NCBI GenBank assembly: GCA_900542505.1
Contig: UQNV01000062.1
Location: 1 to 6,077, forward strand
DNA length: 6,077 nucleotides
Reading direction: 5' to 3'
Source of the DNA: an uncultured Alistipes sp.
Lineage (GTDB): Bacteria > Bacteroidota > Bacteroidia > Bacteroidales > Rikenellaceae
Of the stretch, positions 1 through 6,077 are shown piece after piece; position 1 is the stretch's first letter; each line of letters starts with the position of its first letter. Under the pieces are notes generated by a model that worked only from the letters and a program-made list of their open reading frames with translations, was not told where the DNA came from and ran no database searches. The position numbers were made by a program, and so were the translations under genes.

Positions 1-1208
1 GTCGTCGGCGACGGCTCCCCCGGAGCGGGGGTCGGGGTCGTCGGAGTGCTCCGGCGGGCCGATGCGGCGTCGATTTCCGGCAACGGGTAGCTGTCGGGGG
101 TCAGGGGGTCATTTTTTTTTTGGCCGAGACCTGCGATTTTCATCAGGCCCAGCTCGACAAGCAGCCGCTGGTTGGACGACTGCCGGATTTTTCCGTCGAG
201 CTCCGTCAGAATGGAGATGGCTCCGAAGAGGAACTCGACACTGCAGGCCTCCGCCTGCGCGCGGTATCGTTCGAGCAGCGTGCCGGTCATCTCAATCAGC
301 CGCAGCGTCTCGGGACGCTTGGCCATCAGCAGGTCGCGCATGTGGCGGTTGAGTCCCGCCATGAAGGTCTGACCCGAGAAACCGCGGCCGAGCACCTGGT
401 CGAAGGTGACCAGCGTCTCGACGTAGTTGCCCGCGCGGAGCATCTCGGTGACTCCGAAATAGGTGTCGTAGTCCAGTACGTTGAGCGTCTGGGCCACTTC
501 GGGATAGCGGAGCGTCGTGCCGCAGAACGAAACCGCCTTGTCGAACATCGACAGGGCGTCGCGCATGCCGCCGTCGGCCTTCTGGGCGATGAGGTTGAGC
601 GACTCCTCGTCGTAGGCGATGCCCTCCTGCGAGGCGATGTAGCGAAGGTATTCGACGCCGTCCTCGACGCGGATGCGGTTGAAGTCGTAAATCTGGCAGC
701 GCGAGAGAATCGTCGGGATGATTTTGTGCTTTTCGGTGGTGGCGAGGATGAAAATCGCATGGGCGGGGGGCTCTTCGAGCGTCTTCAGGAAGGCGTTGAA
801 GGCCGCGGCCGAGAGCATGTGGACCTCGTCGATGATGAAGACCGAGTAGCGTCCCACCTGCGGGATGATGCGCACCTGGTCGATGAGCGTGCGGATATCC
901 TCCACCGAGTTGTTCGACGCGGCGTCGAGTTCGTGGATGTTGAGCGAACGCCCCTCGTTGAACGAGCGGCACGATTCGCATTCGTTGCACGCCTCGGCAC
1001 CCTGGGGGTGCAGGCAGTTGATGGCCTTGGCGAAGATGCGGGCGCAGGTGGTTTTGCCCACGCCGCGCGGGCCGCAGAAGAGGTAGGCATGGGCCAGCTG
1101 ACCCCGTTCGATGGCGTTGCGGAGCGTGGAGGTGATATGCTTTTGCCCGACGACCGAAGCGAAGGTCGCGGGGCGGTATTTGCGTGCGCTGACGATGAAA
1201 TCACTCAT
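1..1208 (-). CDS. dnaX: DNA polymerase III subunit gamma/tau (clamp loader), 3' end missing
   Basis: This is the ATPase subunit of the clamp loader, which opens and places the sliding clamp on DNA; the longer tau form also ties the polymerase cores to the loader and the helicase. The reading frame starts at the ATG at 1208 (MSDFIVSARKYRP) and stays open to the left edge, giving 402 codons. Seen in order: Walker A GPRGVGKTT at residues 46-54; zinc-binding cysteines C65, C74, C77 and C80; Walker B VFIIDEVHML at 123-132; the SRC arginine-finger motif at 169-171; sensor 2 GGMRDAL at 213-219; then the helical collar domain to about residue 362. From residue 367 on the sequence becomes a Pro/Thr/Ser-rich linker, as in tau proteins. 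The tau C-terminal domains are off the window. At residues 363-366 the gene crosses a run of ten A (separate entry). The start is secure because the SARKYRP segment begins the family domain. It lies 180 bp downstream of the tupA-like gene on the same strand. Confidence 0.97.
   Translation of the reverse strand, partial: MSDFIVSARKYRPATFASVVGQKHITSTLRNAIERGQLAHAYLFCGPRGVGKTTCARIFAKAINCLHPQGAEACNECESCRSFNEGRSLNIHELDAASNNSVEDIRTLIDQVRIIPQVGRYSVFIIDEVHMLSAAAFNAFLKTLEEPPAHAIFILATTEKHKIIPTILSRCQIYDFNRIRVEDGVEYLRYIASQEGIAYDEESLNLIAQKADGGMRDALSMFDKAVSFCGTTLRYPEVAQTLNVLDYDTYFGVTEMLRAGNYVETLVTFDQVLGRGFSGQTFMAGLNRHMRDLLMAKRPETLRLIEMTGTLLERYRAQAEACSVEFLFGAISILTELDGKIRQSSNQRLLVELGLMKIAGLGQKKNDPLTPDSYPLPEIDAASARRSTPTTPTPAPGEPSPT
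101..121 (-). promoter_or_regulatory. candidate dnaX slippage (recoding) site: A10 run with stops in both other frames
   Basis: On the coding strand, ten consecutive A (121 to 112) follow GGCC and precede two tandem copies of TGACCCCC. Normal reading is CAA AAA AAA AAT GAC and continues into the tau linker. A -1 shift, or one extra A in the mRNA, gives Q-K-K-K then TGA (111-109), a 366-residue product. A +1 shift, or one A fewer, gives Q-K-K-M-T-P then TGA (103-101), a 368-residue product. The A AAA AAA heptamer is in the correct phase for tandem -1 slippage. Known from the family: E. coli dnaX makes gamma by -1 frameshifting at A AAA AAG, and Thermus thermophilus dnaX by transcriptional slippage on a run of A. 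That this site works here is inference. I found no clear downstream stem-loop or Shine-Dalgarno stimulator. Confidence 0.7.
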
Positions 1209-1215
1209 GATGCAG

Positions 1216-1223
1216 CAAAGATA
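1216..1223 (-). promoter_or_regulatory. candidate dnaX -7 promoter box
   Basis: The minus strand reads TATCTTTG, a full match to the Bacteroidota -7 consensus TAnnTTTG. Only 7 nt separate it from the dnaX ATG, so a transcript from it would be leaderless or nearly so. The best -33 candidate, TTTTTG (1243-1238), is only 14 nt upstream, shorter than the usual spacing of about 19-21 nt, which weakens the call. Confidence 0.4.
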
Positions 1224-1233
1224 GTGAAAGTCG

Positions 1234-1271
1234 CGCGCAAAAAGTCATGCTTGCATGAGTTTTTTGCCGCG
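1234..1271 (-). terminator. long inverted repeat, probable terminator (possibly bidirectional) upstream of dnaX
   Basis: The core is TCATGC-TT-GCATGA (1245-1258), flanked by a G on each side, then by five A on the left (1239-1243) and six T on the right (1260-1265), then by GC on both sides, with CGC/GCG pairing further out if C1268 bulges. A hairpin followed by a T tract results on either strand (CTTTTT on the minus strand, GTTTTTT on the plus strand). Transcription here should come from the tupA-like gene, which ends about 120 bp upstream on the minus strand, so termination of that transcript is the simplest role. The two-base centre forces a loop of at least four bases and a core stem of five pairs, so stability is moderate. 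It also lies where a -33 region for dnaX would be, so an operator role is possible. Confidence 0.5.
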
Positions 1272-1388
1272 ACGCATGCTATCTGCTCCGAAGTCGGGAA
1301 AAGTTCGGCGGATTCGCACCTCCCTCCTTCCCGGATTCGGTGCCCGGCGTCCGGTTCTTTCAGGCGTGCCGCCCTCCGTCGCCCGGTG

Positions 1389-2408
1389 TCAGGCCTCGGA
1401 GCCCGACCGCTCGGGGTGGCGGAAGAGGACGAATCCCGTGGGCATGCGGTTCGGCAGCGCCTCCTCGGGCAGCGTAATCCGGTCGCCCATCATCCGCTGG
1501 AACTCCTCGGTGAAGCGGGGGCTGGTGCCTGCCGCCGAGGTGAAGGTGAGTTCGCCGAAGACGGGGCGTCCGTCGATTTCGTAGAGGTCGACGCGCACCT
1601 CGGGGAAGCCGTGGGAGAGACGGCGGGCGGCGTCGAGCATCCGGTCGAGCGATGCCGGGCGGGGAATCTGTCGCTGCCCCTGCTTGTAGTGCGAAGGGTT
1701 GATGTAGTGGTTGAGCGGTTCCCAGGTGTGGGCGTCGTAGAGGCAGGTGTTGAACCCGCCGTGTCCCTGGCGGTCGTAGCAGACCATGCAGTAGCAGGGC
1801 TCGCCGTCGAGGCAGAAGAACTTGTAGTCGATGAGCGAACAGCTCAGCGCGGGGTTCTCGTGGAGCATCTTTTCGGCGATGATGCAGGGCTTGATGAACA
1901 TGTAGTGGTGCTCGGCGCTCTTGAATCCGTAGTGGTAGCGGAGCGCCCGTTTCATCTTGTGGCGAATCGACTTCAGGTCGGCCGTGCGGGCGTCCGAGAC
2001 CAGGATGACGTCGCCGCAGCCGTTGTTGGTCTTCAGCACGAATTCGCGGCCCTGGAGCTGCGGCAGCGTGAGATCAATCTCTTCGGGACGCTCCCATACG
2101 GCATAGAGTTCGTTGAGCATCCAGCCCAGGCCGCACTGCTCGACATATTCGCGCACGCGGTATTTGTCGGCCAGCTGCGTCCAGCGCGACGTGTCGGAGA
2201 AGTGTTTCAGCCAGAGCACCTTCTCGTTGAAGGTCTTCGGATGGTGCAGGTCGGGGACGCGGCCCAGTTTCTCGCGATAGAGCTCGGAGGTCAGTTTCAG
2301 CGGCGAGACATAGGCATAGTAGTGTTTCTTGAGCCGCTGCATACGGTATTGCAGATATGCAACGAAAGAATTGAACCCGAGGGTGAGTTCATTCGCATTT
2401 TGGGCCAT
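1389..2408 (-). CDS. TupA-like ATP-grasp protein (polysaccharide biosynthesis)
   Basis: A 339-residue cytoplasmic protein with the layout of the TupA-like ATP-grasp family (Pfam ATPgrasp_TupA), often annotated as a glycosyltransferase. TupA is known from teichuronopeptide synthesis, and relatives are frequent in capsule and O-antigen loci, where they are thought to join amino acids to sugars using ATP. Seen in order: KTFNEKVLWLK at 58-68; LADKYRVREYVEQ at 79-91; FVLKTNNGCGD at 123-133, with K126 a likely ATP-binding lysine and a glycine-rich turn; IAEKML at 177-182; DYKFFCLDGEP at 194-204; and VRVDLYEID at 271-279 with FGELTFT at 284-290, where D274 and E286 are likely metal ligands. There is no signal peptide or membrane segment. 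The ATG at 2408 is the first in frame and is preceded by an A-poor leader without a Shine-Dalgarno site. No glycosyltransferase, flippase or polymerase gene is next to it, so its polymer cannot be read from context. The exact substrate is unknown. Confidence 0.85.
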   Translation of the reverse strand: MAQNANELTLGFNSFVAYLQYRMQRLKKHYYAYVSPLKLTSELYREKLGRVPDLHHPKTFNEKVLWLKHFSDTSRWTQLADKYRVREYVEQCGLGWMLNELYAVWERPEEIDLTLPQLQGREFVLKTNNGCGDVILVSDARTADLKSIRHKMKRALRYHYGFKSAEHHYMFIKPCIIAEKMLHENPALSCSLIDYKFFCLDGEPCYCMVCYDRQGHGGFNTCLYDAHTWEPLNHYINPSHYKQGQRQIPRPASLDRMLDAARRLSHGFPEVRVDLYEIDGRPVFGELTFTSAAGTSPRFTEEFQRMMGDRITLPEEALPNRMPTGFVLFRHPERSGSEA

Positions 2409-2696: not shown

Positions 2697-3110
2697 ATGC
2701 GCGTGATTCGAATTATGGCGTCGGCATTGCTGGCGCTGCTGTGTGTCGGGAGTGCATGGGCTGCGGAGCCGACCTTCCAGCTGAGTACCCACATGTTGGA
2801 CATTTCGCGGGGCGAGCCTGCACGGGGCGTGCGGGTGGTGCTCGAGGAGCGGCAGGCCGACGGAGGCTGGCTCGGGGTGGCCGAACGGCGGACCGATGCC
2901 AACGGTCGGGTGGCTGACCTGCTTCCCGTCGGACAGCCGAACGACGGAGTCTACCGGCTGCGGTTCGAGACCGAACCCTATTTCGAGAGCCAGGGGCTCC
3001 GCTCGATTTATCCCTGGGTCGAGGTGACCTTCCGCATCGAGGGCGAGGGGCATTACCACATCCCCATCACGATGTCGGCCAACGGCTACGCGACCTACCG
3101 GGGCAACTGA
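2697..3110 (+). CDS. hiuH: secreted 5-hydroxyisourate hydrolase (transthyretin-like protein)
   Basis: A 137-residue transthyretin-fold enzyme predicted to hydrolyse 5-hydroxyisourate, the first product of urate oxidation, to OHCU (2-oxo-4-hydroxy-4-carboxy-5-ureidoimidazoline). Residues 1-22 form a signal peptide: basic start (R2, R5), hydrophobic core ALLALLCVG, and an AWA site that predicts cleavage before A23. C16 lacks a lipobox, so the mature protein (about 115 residues, the usual family length) should be free in the periplasm, like E. coli HiuH. Family marks: STHMLD at 30-35 with catalytic-type H32; DANGRV at 67-72 with R71; YPWVEVTF at 105-112; HYHIP at 119-123 with the H119/H121 pair; and the C-terminal YRGN at 134-137. 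The family usually ends in Y-R-G-S, so the final Ser is replaced by Asn. The ATG at 2697 is chosen because it alone gives the basic n-region; M7 would lose it. No urate oxidase or OHCU decarboxylase gene is nearby. A terminator lies about 155 bp downstream. Confidence 0.9.
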   Translation: MRVIRIMASALLALLCVGSAWAAEPTFQLSTHMLDISRGEPARGVRVVLEERQADGGWLGVAERRTDANGRVADLLPVGQPNDGVYRLRFETEPYFESQGLRSIYPWVEVTFRIEGEGHYHIPITMSANGYATYRGN

Positions 3111-3528: not shown

Positions 3529-6030
3529 ATGAATATCAACACTTTAACCATCAAGGCGCAGGAGGCATTGCAGAGTGCAATCACTCTTGCACAGGAGCGG
3601 GGGCAGCAGGCCGTGGAGCCGGTGCACCTGCTGAGCGTGCTGATACGCGAAGAGAACGCCCTGTCGACCTTCCTATTGGGTCGCGTGGGGGTCAATGTCA
3701 AGATGTTGCGCGATGAGACGAACCGCCTGCTGGCATCGCTTCCGAGGGTGCAGGGCAGCAGCGAGCAGTACTTTGCGCAGGATACGTCGAAGGTCGTGCA
3801 GCGCGCCGTAGATTTTACGAAGAATTTCGGCGACAAGTATGCGTCGGTCGAGCACCTGCTGTTGGCGCTCGTTGCCGAGCGAGGCCAGGTTTCCGAGCTG
3901 CTCAAGCGCCACGGCGCTTCGGAGAAGGAGCTCATCGAGGCCATCCGCACCTTCCGCAAGGGGGCGACGGTCGACTCGCAGACCTCCTCGCAGGAGTTCG
4001 ACGCACTGGGCAAGTATGCCGTCAACCTCAACGAGCAGGCTCGCTCCGGAAAGCTCGACCCGGTCATCGGCCGTGACGAGGAGATTCGCCGCGTGCTGCA
4101 GATTCTGTCGCGCCGTACGAAGAACAACCCGATTCTGGTCGGTGAGGCCGGTGTCGGCAAGACGGCCATCGCCGAAGGCATTGCCCACCGCATTGTCGAC
4201 GGCGATGTGCCCGAGAACCTCAAGTCGAAGGTCATCTACTCGCTCGACATGGGTGCGCTGATTGCCGGCGCGAAGTATCAGGGCGAGTTCGAGGAGCGTC
4301 TGAAGGCGGTCGTGCAGGAGGTCGTCTCGAGCGACGGCGAAATCCTGCTCTTCATCGACGAGATTCATACGCTGGTCGGTGCGGGCAAGTCGTCGGGCGC
4401 GATGGATGCGGCCAACATCCTCAAGCCGGCGCTGGCGCGCGGCGAGCTGCGCACCATCGGTGCCACGACGCTCGACGAGTACCAGAAGTATTTCGAGCAG
4501 GACAAGGCGCTCGAACGCCGTTTCCAGAAGGTGATGGTCGACGAGCCTTCGCGCGAGGATGCCATCTCGATTCTCCGCGGCCTGAAGGAGCGCTACGAGA
4601 ACCACCATCAGGTGCGTATCAAGGATGAGGCGATTGTGGCGGCCGTCGAGCTCTCGACGCGTTACATCACCTCGCGGTTCCTCCCCGACAAGGCCATCGA
4701 CCTGGTCGACGAGGCCGCCTCGCGGCTGCGGCTCGAGATGAACTCGATGCCCGAGGAAATCGATACGCTCGAGCGTCGTATGCGTCAGCTCGAAATCGAG
4801 CGTGAGGCCATCCGTCGCGAGAACGACAAGGAGCGCGTCGAGTCGCTGACGCATGAAATCGACGAACTGAAGGCCAGGGATTCCGAACTGCGGGCCAAGT
4901 GGCAGGGCCAGCGCGACCTGCTCCGGAAAATCCAGGCCGACAAGGACGAAATCGAGCGTCTGAAGATTGAGGCGCAGCAGGCCGAGCGCCAGGGCGACTA
5001 CGGCCGTGTGGCCGAAATCCGCTACGGCCGGATTCAGGAGGCTGAGAAGCGCATTGCGACCCTGCAGGAGGAGTTCCGTCTGGCTTCGGCCGGCGGCGAT
5101 GCGATGATTAAGGAGGAGGTCGACGCCCAGGACATCGCCGAGGTGGTTTCGCGTTGGACGGGCATTCCCGTACAGCGCATGCTCGCCTCCGAGCGCGAGA
5201 AGCTGCTCCACATGGAGGAGGAGCTCCACAAGCGTGTCGTCGGTCAGGAGCAGGCCATTGCCGCCATCTCCGATGCCGTGCGCCGCTCGCGTGCCGGACT
5301 GAACGACCCGCGCAAGCCGATTGGCTCGTTCATCTTCCTCGGTACGACGGGTGTGGGCAAGACCGAGCTGGCGAAGGCGCTGGCCGAGTTCCTCTTCAAC
5401 GACGATACGATGATGACGCGTATCGACATGAGCGAGTATCAGGAGCGTCACAGCGTCTCGCGTCTGGTCGGTGCGCCTCCGGGATACGTCGGTTACGACG
5501 AGGGCGGCCAGCTCACCGAAGCCGTGCGGCGCAAGCCCTACTCGGTGGTGCTGCTCGATGAAATCGAGAAGGCCCATCCCGATGTCTTCAACATCCTGCT
5601 GCAGGTGCTCGACGACGGTCGTCTGACCGACAACAAGGGACGTACGGTCGATTTCCGCAACACGATTATCATCATGACGTCGAACATGGGCTCGCAGGTC
5701 ATCCAGGAGAATTTCGCCTCGGCATTCGACGGGGAGAAGCTCTCCGAGGAGGTCGTCGAGAAGACGCGCCGCGAGGTCATCGAACTGCTCAAGCAGCAGC
5801 TCAAGCCCGAGTTCCTGAACCGTATCGACGAGATTGTGATGTTCGAGCCGCTGACGCGTGCCGACATCGAGCGGATTGTCGACATCCAGCTCTCCCATGT
5901 GCGCCGGATGCTCGAGGAGAACGGCATCCAGCTCGAATACACGGCGGCAGCGCGCAAGTGGGTGGCCACGGCCGGTTACGACCCGCTCTACGGAGCACGT
6001 CCGGTCAAGCGTACCATCCAGCGCTACATC
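3529..6030 (+). CDS. clpB: ATP-dependent disaggregase ClpB (Hsp100), C-terminus cut by contig end
   Basis: A hexameric cytoplasmic AAA+ chaperone that pulls proteins out of aggregates together with DnaK. There are 834 residues up to the adapter junction; the family is usually about 860, so about 30 C-terminal residues are missing. Domains: N-terminal Clp_N repeats, about 1-145; first AAA+ with Walker A GEAGVGKT at 205-212, pore loop tyrosine Y250, Walker B LLFIDE at 273-278 and arginines R330/R331; coiled-coil middle domain about 410-520, which marks ClpB rather than ClpA or ClpC; second AAA+ with Walker [10 protein letters not shown] at 605-613, pore loop GYVGY at 652-656 and Walker B LLDE at 675-678; then [13 protein letters not shown] near the end. 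All key residues are present. The ATG at 3529 is chosen because [13 protein letters not shown] begins the N-domain, and an A-rich leader precedes it without a Shine-Dalgarno site. Upstream lie a phased repeat array and a weak promoter candidate. The frame stays open through the adapter, but those codons are not real. Confidence 0.97.
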
Positions 6031-6077
6031 TGTCTCTTATACACATCTCCGAGCCCACGAGACATCTCAGGATCTCG
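6030..6077. other. Nextera (Tn5) sequencing adapter, index and P7 start: not genomic
   Basis: From 6030 to 6048 the sequence is CTGTCTCTTATACACATCT, the Tn5 mosaic end. Then CCGAGCCCACGAGAC (6049-6063) completes the Nextera i7-side adapter. ATCTCAGG (6064-6071) sits where the 8-base index belongs and matches i7 index N715 as I remember it. ATCTCG (6072-6077) is the start of the P7 primer region. C6030 could be genomic or adapter. This is untrimmed read-through, so genomic sequence ends at 6029 or 6030. Confidence 0.98.

Follow-up and report, generated by a model that had tools for sequence, protein, structure and literature searches.

A conserved A run at the gamma/tau junction of Bacteroidota dnaX as a candidate site of transcriptional slippage

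The dnaX gene at the left end of the window

The stretch of 6,077 nucleotides analysed here (the window) derives from an Alistipes-like member of the Rikenellaceae, whose nearest named relative is 92% identical in DnaX (among the best 80 of 584 confirmed stretches). Its first 1,208 positions hold the beginning of dnaX on the minus strand, which the left end of the window truncates after 402 residues, full-length tau extending past the window. The features of this region, in window coordinates, are the following.

3..1208, minus strand: dnaX, encoding the N-terminal 402 residues of DNA polymerase III subunit gamma/tau, cut by the left end of the window (open frame; TIGR02397, E 4e-127; PRK14971, E 7.6e-195)
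129..500, minus strand: clamp-loader domain III, residues 237-360 (Pfam DNA_pol3_gamma3, E 1.6e-5)
112..121, minus strand: run of ten As in the mRNA (T10 on the plus strand), the proposed slippage site (a single match in the window, 0.01 expected; 238 of 353 unique dnaX genes have A9 to A13 here)
109..111, minus strand: TGA adjoining the run, reached by one additional A or by a -1 ribosomal shift and predicted to end a gamma of 366 residues (reading of the sequence)
101..103, minus strand: TGA reached by one A fewer or two more, predicted to end a gamma of 368 residues (reading of the sequence)
3..108, minus strand: start of the tau-only linker, zero frame open to the end of the window (open frame)

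The zero frame at the junction reads CTC GGC CAA AAA AAA AAT GAC CCC CTG ACC, and the run starts in codon 363, directly past domain III, whose Pfam match extends to residue 360 (TIGR02397 covers residues 6-358). With one A fewer the frame translates to ..KKKMTP* and ends at the TGA at 101-103. An earlier note on this DNA, made from the sequence alone, had placed ten As exactly at the end of the clamp-loader domains, followed by off-frame TGA codons, and had deduced short products of 366 or 368 residues. The position of the run, the domain boundary and the two TGA codons bear out the former, and reading both shifted frames returns the same product lengths; the interval that it had marked, 101-121, comprises the run together with both off-frame stops. 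A10 is found once in the window, against a mean of 0.01 in dinucleotide-preserving shuffles, and the same A10 is kept in the nearest relatives found, L001 (Alistipes montrealensis, 92%; among the best 80 of 584) and L081 (92%).

The window gene shares features with two types of dnaX that are known to make two products. As in the Thermus type, at least about nine As stand at the gamma/tau junction with stops near in both other frames, and as in the E. coli type, the heptamer A_AAA_AAA lies inside the run with an immediate TGA in the -1 frame. Its zero frame stays open to the end of the window, whereas that of the two-ORF genes collected by the GeneTack survey, and of 52 of the relatives considered below, ends as gamma. 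A search of the window, L035 and L001 against Rfam at the gathering threshold gave no match, and scans of window positions 1-1400 yielded no promoter-like site and one terminator-like site, against 1.5 expected.

Elsewhere in the window, a TupA-like ATP-grasp protein at 1389-2408 (minus strand) is an ordinary neighbour of dnaX, and a hydroxyisourate hydrolase/transthyretin-like protein, with a signal peptide recognised by eye, is encoded at 2697-3110 (plus strand). The right end of the window, 6030-6077, matches a sequencing transposon adapter (CTGTCTCTTATACACATCT at 6030-6048), which we take to be the Nextera adapter; because of this match, the final clpB codons at that end are regarded as an artefact.

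Conservation of the run

The comparative set combines the window dnaX with 366 further loci; of these 367 sequences, eight without the site and six exact repeats were removed, leaving 353. The loci comprise 80 named records, 108 from a family draw, 129 further loci from a phylum draw and 49 further loci from an order draw. The named records are the best 80 of 584 confirmed stretches, and run-bearers are favoured among them, since one of the six search peptides extends across the run. The family draw of 120 genomes gave its 108 loci in two ways (30 automatic, 78 fetched), the remainder being six already among the named loci, two partial matches without the site and four weak matches only. From the phylum draw of 198 genomes, 130 including G001 were used (30 best-scoring and 100 hand-chosen from the listed rows), with a bias in that some of one batch of 20 were picked for short open frames. 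The order draw covered 149 genomes, of which 50 were used (30 best-scoring and 20 hand-spread over the rest), and two were already in the set. L307-L315, nine loci retrieved for their GGGCGTAGCCC pattern, are excluded from all counts, and since the sequences are related, the counts are not independent events.

Among the 353 unique genes, 238 carry A9 to A13 at the junction (39 runs of nine, 164 of ten, 30 of eleven, four of twelve and one of thirteen); five others have seven or eight As, and the remaining 110 have two to six. The earlier note had asked whether related genomes break the run with AAG codons: in the family draw, A9 or longer persists in 89 of the 99 unique loci that cover the site and is lacking in the other 10; in L183, one of the 89, the A9 lies at about residue 392, away from the usual place. 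Run-bearers make up 31 of 76 genes in the named set (the best 80 of 584), 87 of 129 in the phylum draw, and 19 of 28 and 11 of 20 in the best-scoring and spread parts of the order draw, in addition to the window. Because a run of nine or more is absent from 10 of 99 family-draw and 42 of 129 phylum-draw genes, the gamma that the run is proposed to make would be dispensable in some lineages. In a FastTree phylogeny of 332 sequences, built before the last 20 loci were added and with two A8 sequences given no state, presence of the run changes at least 24 times, a count that FastTree error can inflate.

The A run at the dnaX junction is not a product of chance. Three equal-sized control windows in the same genes contain A9 or longer in 0 of 353 genes each, and a control window in the tau linker does so in 2 of 350. 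Synonymous codon usage predicts A9 at the junction in 5.4 of 111 run-bearing Rikenellaceae-type loci; these loci hold 116 A or T runs of nine or more in 371,394 bases, and every locus has one at dnaX. In whole genomes related to the Rikenellaceae (G001-G010), A10 or T10 placements number two to four per 1.6-3.5 Mb in eight genomes, and 12 and 14 in G007 and G010 (an A11 scoring two in this count). The start of the run is free with respect to codon phase, falling in the three phases in 27, 155 and 56 genes.

Stops and tau tails around the run

Closure of the two other frames was assessed by permuting downstream codons in 182 of the 186 run-bearers with tau in the zero frame, four being dropped because their open frame or the sequence available was too short. 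Both off-frames stop within seven codons in 164 of the 182, against 18.4 expected, and the off-frame stops to which the earlier note had drawn attention are thus kept in relatives. Taken singly, the -1 frame stops within seven codons in 179 of these genes, and the other frame is closed in 165, against 45.7 expected. In many Rikenellaceae the codon after AAT is GAC, AAC, GAA, AGT, AGC or GAT, all of which give TGA, TAA or TAG when shifted. A natural control is provided by 104 loci that lack the run and have a zero frame free of stops for 60 codons or more; at the matched place, stops in both frames occur in 13, against 8.7 expected. Only one frame closes within 12 codons in 9 of the 238 run-bearers.

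In a further 52 run-bearing genes it is the zero frame that stops within 12 codons, and plain translation of these genes would yield gamma. The open frame lies one A away in 45 of them and in the other register in seven, where it is out of reach for a -1 ribosomal shift. A tau-tail profile, built solely from zero-frame tau tails, matches the open other frame in 51 of the 52, with no wrong-frame match at E<1e-3; a smaller earlier run had found the tail in the open frame in 44 of 47. With the tau tail out of the zero frame, these genes must shift frame if tau is made at all. On the FastTree tree at least 22 changes of register fall among 226 run-bearers, a count likewise open to inflation by tree error, and the gamma parts of L254, with A11 and in-frame tau, and of L255, with A10 and the other register, share 88% identity. 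Of the 89 run-bearers in the family draw, 88 have their tau in the zero frame.

The sole exception among the 52, without a tau-tail match, is L139, whose contig ends soon after the run. This family-draw member of the Rikenellaceae has A9 and a zero frame that ends seven codons past the run, and its 98.6% relative L130 has A10 with tau in frame. L139 may represent a real change of register or an assembly error near the contig end.

Reading these patterns together, we consider it quite probable that RNA polymerase slips at the A10 of the window dnaX, and that full tau would be translated from some mRNAs and a gamma of 366-368 residues from others. The polymerase would slip on the unbroken A10 just past the clamp-loader domains, giving mRNAs of mixed run length, and ordinary translation would then produce tau where the change in length is a multiple of three and gamma where it is not. 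That slippage occurs, and that the polymerase rather than mainly the ribosome is its site, is likely on this comparative evidence; that the window gene slips as its relatives would, we infer by homology. RNA-polymerase slippage is favoured over frameshifting of the E. coli type because the open frame of some genes lies in the third register, the phase of the run is free, run lengths exceed seven and stimulators are mostly absent. The preference for RNA polymerase in the earlier note is accordingly one that two findings appear to support: tau tails occur in each of the three registers, and stimulators of the E. coli type are rare. Moreover, by the reasoning given in passages of the GeneTack survey (PMC3711429), a tail found in both other registers would point to transcriptional realignment.

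A ribosomal origin of gamma, by -1 frameshifting at A_AAA_AAA within the run as in E. coli dnaX, is unlikely. Any run of nine or more contains the heptamer, and the near-universal -1 stop fits such a shift, yet the heptamer needs seven As only, and the runs have nine to thirteen, with just 5 of 353 genes at seven or eight. Likewise, the -1 stop alone would suffice, and the closure of the other frame well above expectation, as well as the seven genes whose tail no -1 shift can reach, speak against this explanation. As to stimulators, Shine-Dalgarno (SD)-like words within 22 nt upstream of the run are rare yet above the control (16 of 226 run-bearers against 4 in the control; among Rikenellaceae-type loci, 4 of 111 against 1), so that an upstream stimulator is not the rule. 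In 44 genes with tau one A away, the 55 nt that follow the run have a slightly lower folding energy than the control window (-9.0 against -7.7 kcal/mol), and a weak ribosomal contribution in genes of this kind is conceivable. In the Rikenellaceae the same stretch folds no better than controls (-13.7 against -13.5 and -13.3), and the overall mean is -11.3 against -10.8 in the control window. On these counts, E. coli-type stimulators appear not to be the rule.

Two further explanations dispense with programmed slippage in expression altogether, and each is very improbable. One takes the run for a functionless part of a lysine-rich linker written in an A-rich codon style, in keeping with the commonness of Lys and Asn codons in linkers and with the 110 genes that get by with runs of six or fewer; it is contradicted by the near absence of such runs from all four control windows, by the low expectation from codon usage, by the excess of off-frame stops and by the tau tails lying out of frame in 51 of the 52 genes, and a chance lysine-rich linker was rejected on the controls, codon usage and tails. 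The other, no more probable, is phase variation at the DNA level, whereby replication slippage would alter run length from cell to cell and switch tau off and on. Long homopolymers do mutate easily, and the register varies between related species, but tau in the zero frame throughout all but one of the family-draw run-bearers argues against such switching, as does the harm that loss of tau would be expected to do to the cell.

Known systems and the reach of the pattern

Transcriptional slippage at an A9 run was demonstrated by experiment for the dnaX of Thermus thermophilus (Larsen et al. 2000, as cited in PMC5009743 and PMC1088944). As described there, that gene resembles the window gene in its homopolymeric A run, zero-frame tau and near stops in both other frames, and differs in belonging to another phylum, in having A9 where the window has A10, and in resting on experiment where slippage here is predicted. 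Passages of the 2013 GeneTack survey (PMC3711429) report 17 dnaX genes from 12 genera that need a -1 shift for tau, nine of them with A10, and suggest transcriptional realignment for these two-ORF genes. The poly-A run, the zero-frame gamma and the tau reached by a -1 shift are shared, register included, by 45 of the relatives; the window differs in its zero-frame tau, and seven relatives are open in the other register, whereas the 17 genes contain -1 frameshifts. According to the earlier note, such a site is not known to have been described for this group of Bacteroidota; the survey bears on this in part, giving nine A10 genes in which tau needs the shift without species names in those passages, which name Chloroherpeton thalassium, Chlorobium chlorochromatii and Chlorobium phaeobacteroides, all with shorter runs.

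In E. coli, dnaX undergoes -1 programmed ribosomal frameshifting at A_AAA_AAG (passages of PMC5009743 and PMC3711429). As there, a single gene would serve tau and gamma with a stop just past the shift; unlike there, an SD-like stimulator is usually missing, the run is longer, both other frames are closed and the Rikenellaceae appear to have no extra downstream structure. In Blochmannia, a poly-A frameshift in dnaX was proposed to be corrected by transcriptional slippage (passages of PMC3017870); the poly-A tract and the proposed slippage are alike, but the frameshift of this symbiont lies within the tau-only region and involves no conserved gamma/tau junction. A review of 2012 states, in the part considered here, that most other bacteria lack dnaX frameshift signatures and may not make gamma (PMC3290774). 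Among open-licence papers, judged mostly by title and the start of the abstract, we recognised no other account of an A-run dnaX for Bacteroidota.

The class of mechanism is already known from Thermus and the two-ORF survey, and the window dnaX adds a further, predicted member. In the literature searched, which was covered to the extent just given, we did not find the prevalence across Bacteroidota, the third register or the loss in Bacteroidaceae and Prevotellaceae. With the run in 87 of 129 genes of the phylum-wide draw, a two-product dnaX could be common in this large phylum of the gut and the environment. Read in one frame at a time, the 52 genes with a closed zero frame would be annotated as a short DnaX, with tau separated from it or overlooked; these genes would also be natural tests of the slippage efficiency of cellular RNA polymerase, since tau there would depend on slippage.

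More broadly, and with moderate confidence, we hypothesize that the slippage cassette is old and widespread in Bacteroidota and has freed the tau tail from the frame of the DNA, making dnaX a frame-agnostic essential gene, and that the run was lost in several clades, with a hairpin instead in Bacteroidaceae and Prevotellaceae. On this hypothesis the tail could wander among the three registers as often as it did while the run stayed, because slipped mRNAs would always supply all three frames.

The hairpin, GGGC-N3/4-GCCC, is present in 38 of 41 named Bacteroidaceae and Prevotellaceae (among the best 80 of 584), 18-29 codons past residue 350, and in 43 loci overall (e.g. L023, L035, L041, L042, L044, L053, L071, and L079), against 1.7 expected from synonymous codon usage. 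It is kept at the nucleotide level while the encoded residues vary (GRSP, GLGP, GLCP, GRRP, and GRKP), with loops of three or four bases, among them GCAA, GTAA, and TTCG. This conserved element stands about where the A run lies in other lineages. No slippery heptamer was seen beside the hairpin in the printed sequences, and -1-frame stops near it are not enriched (27 of 43 loci, against 24.7 expected). Stops in the +1 frame are enriched at the 43 loci (33 against 10.6), and may be a by-product, falling mostly in a conserved Leu-Lys pair.
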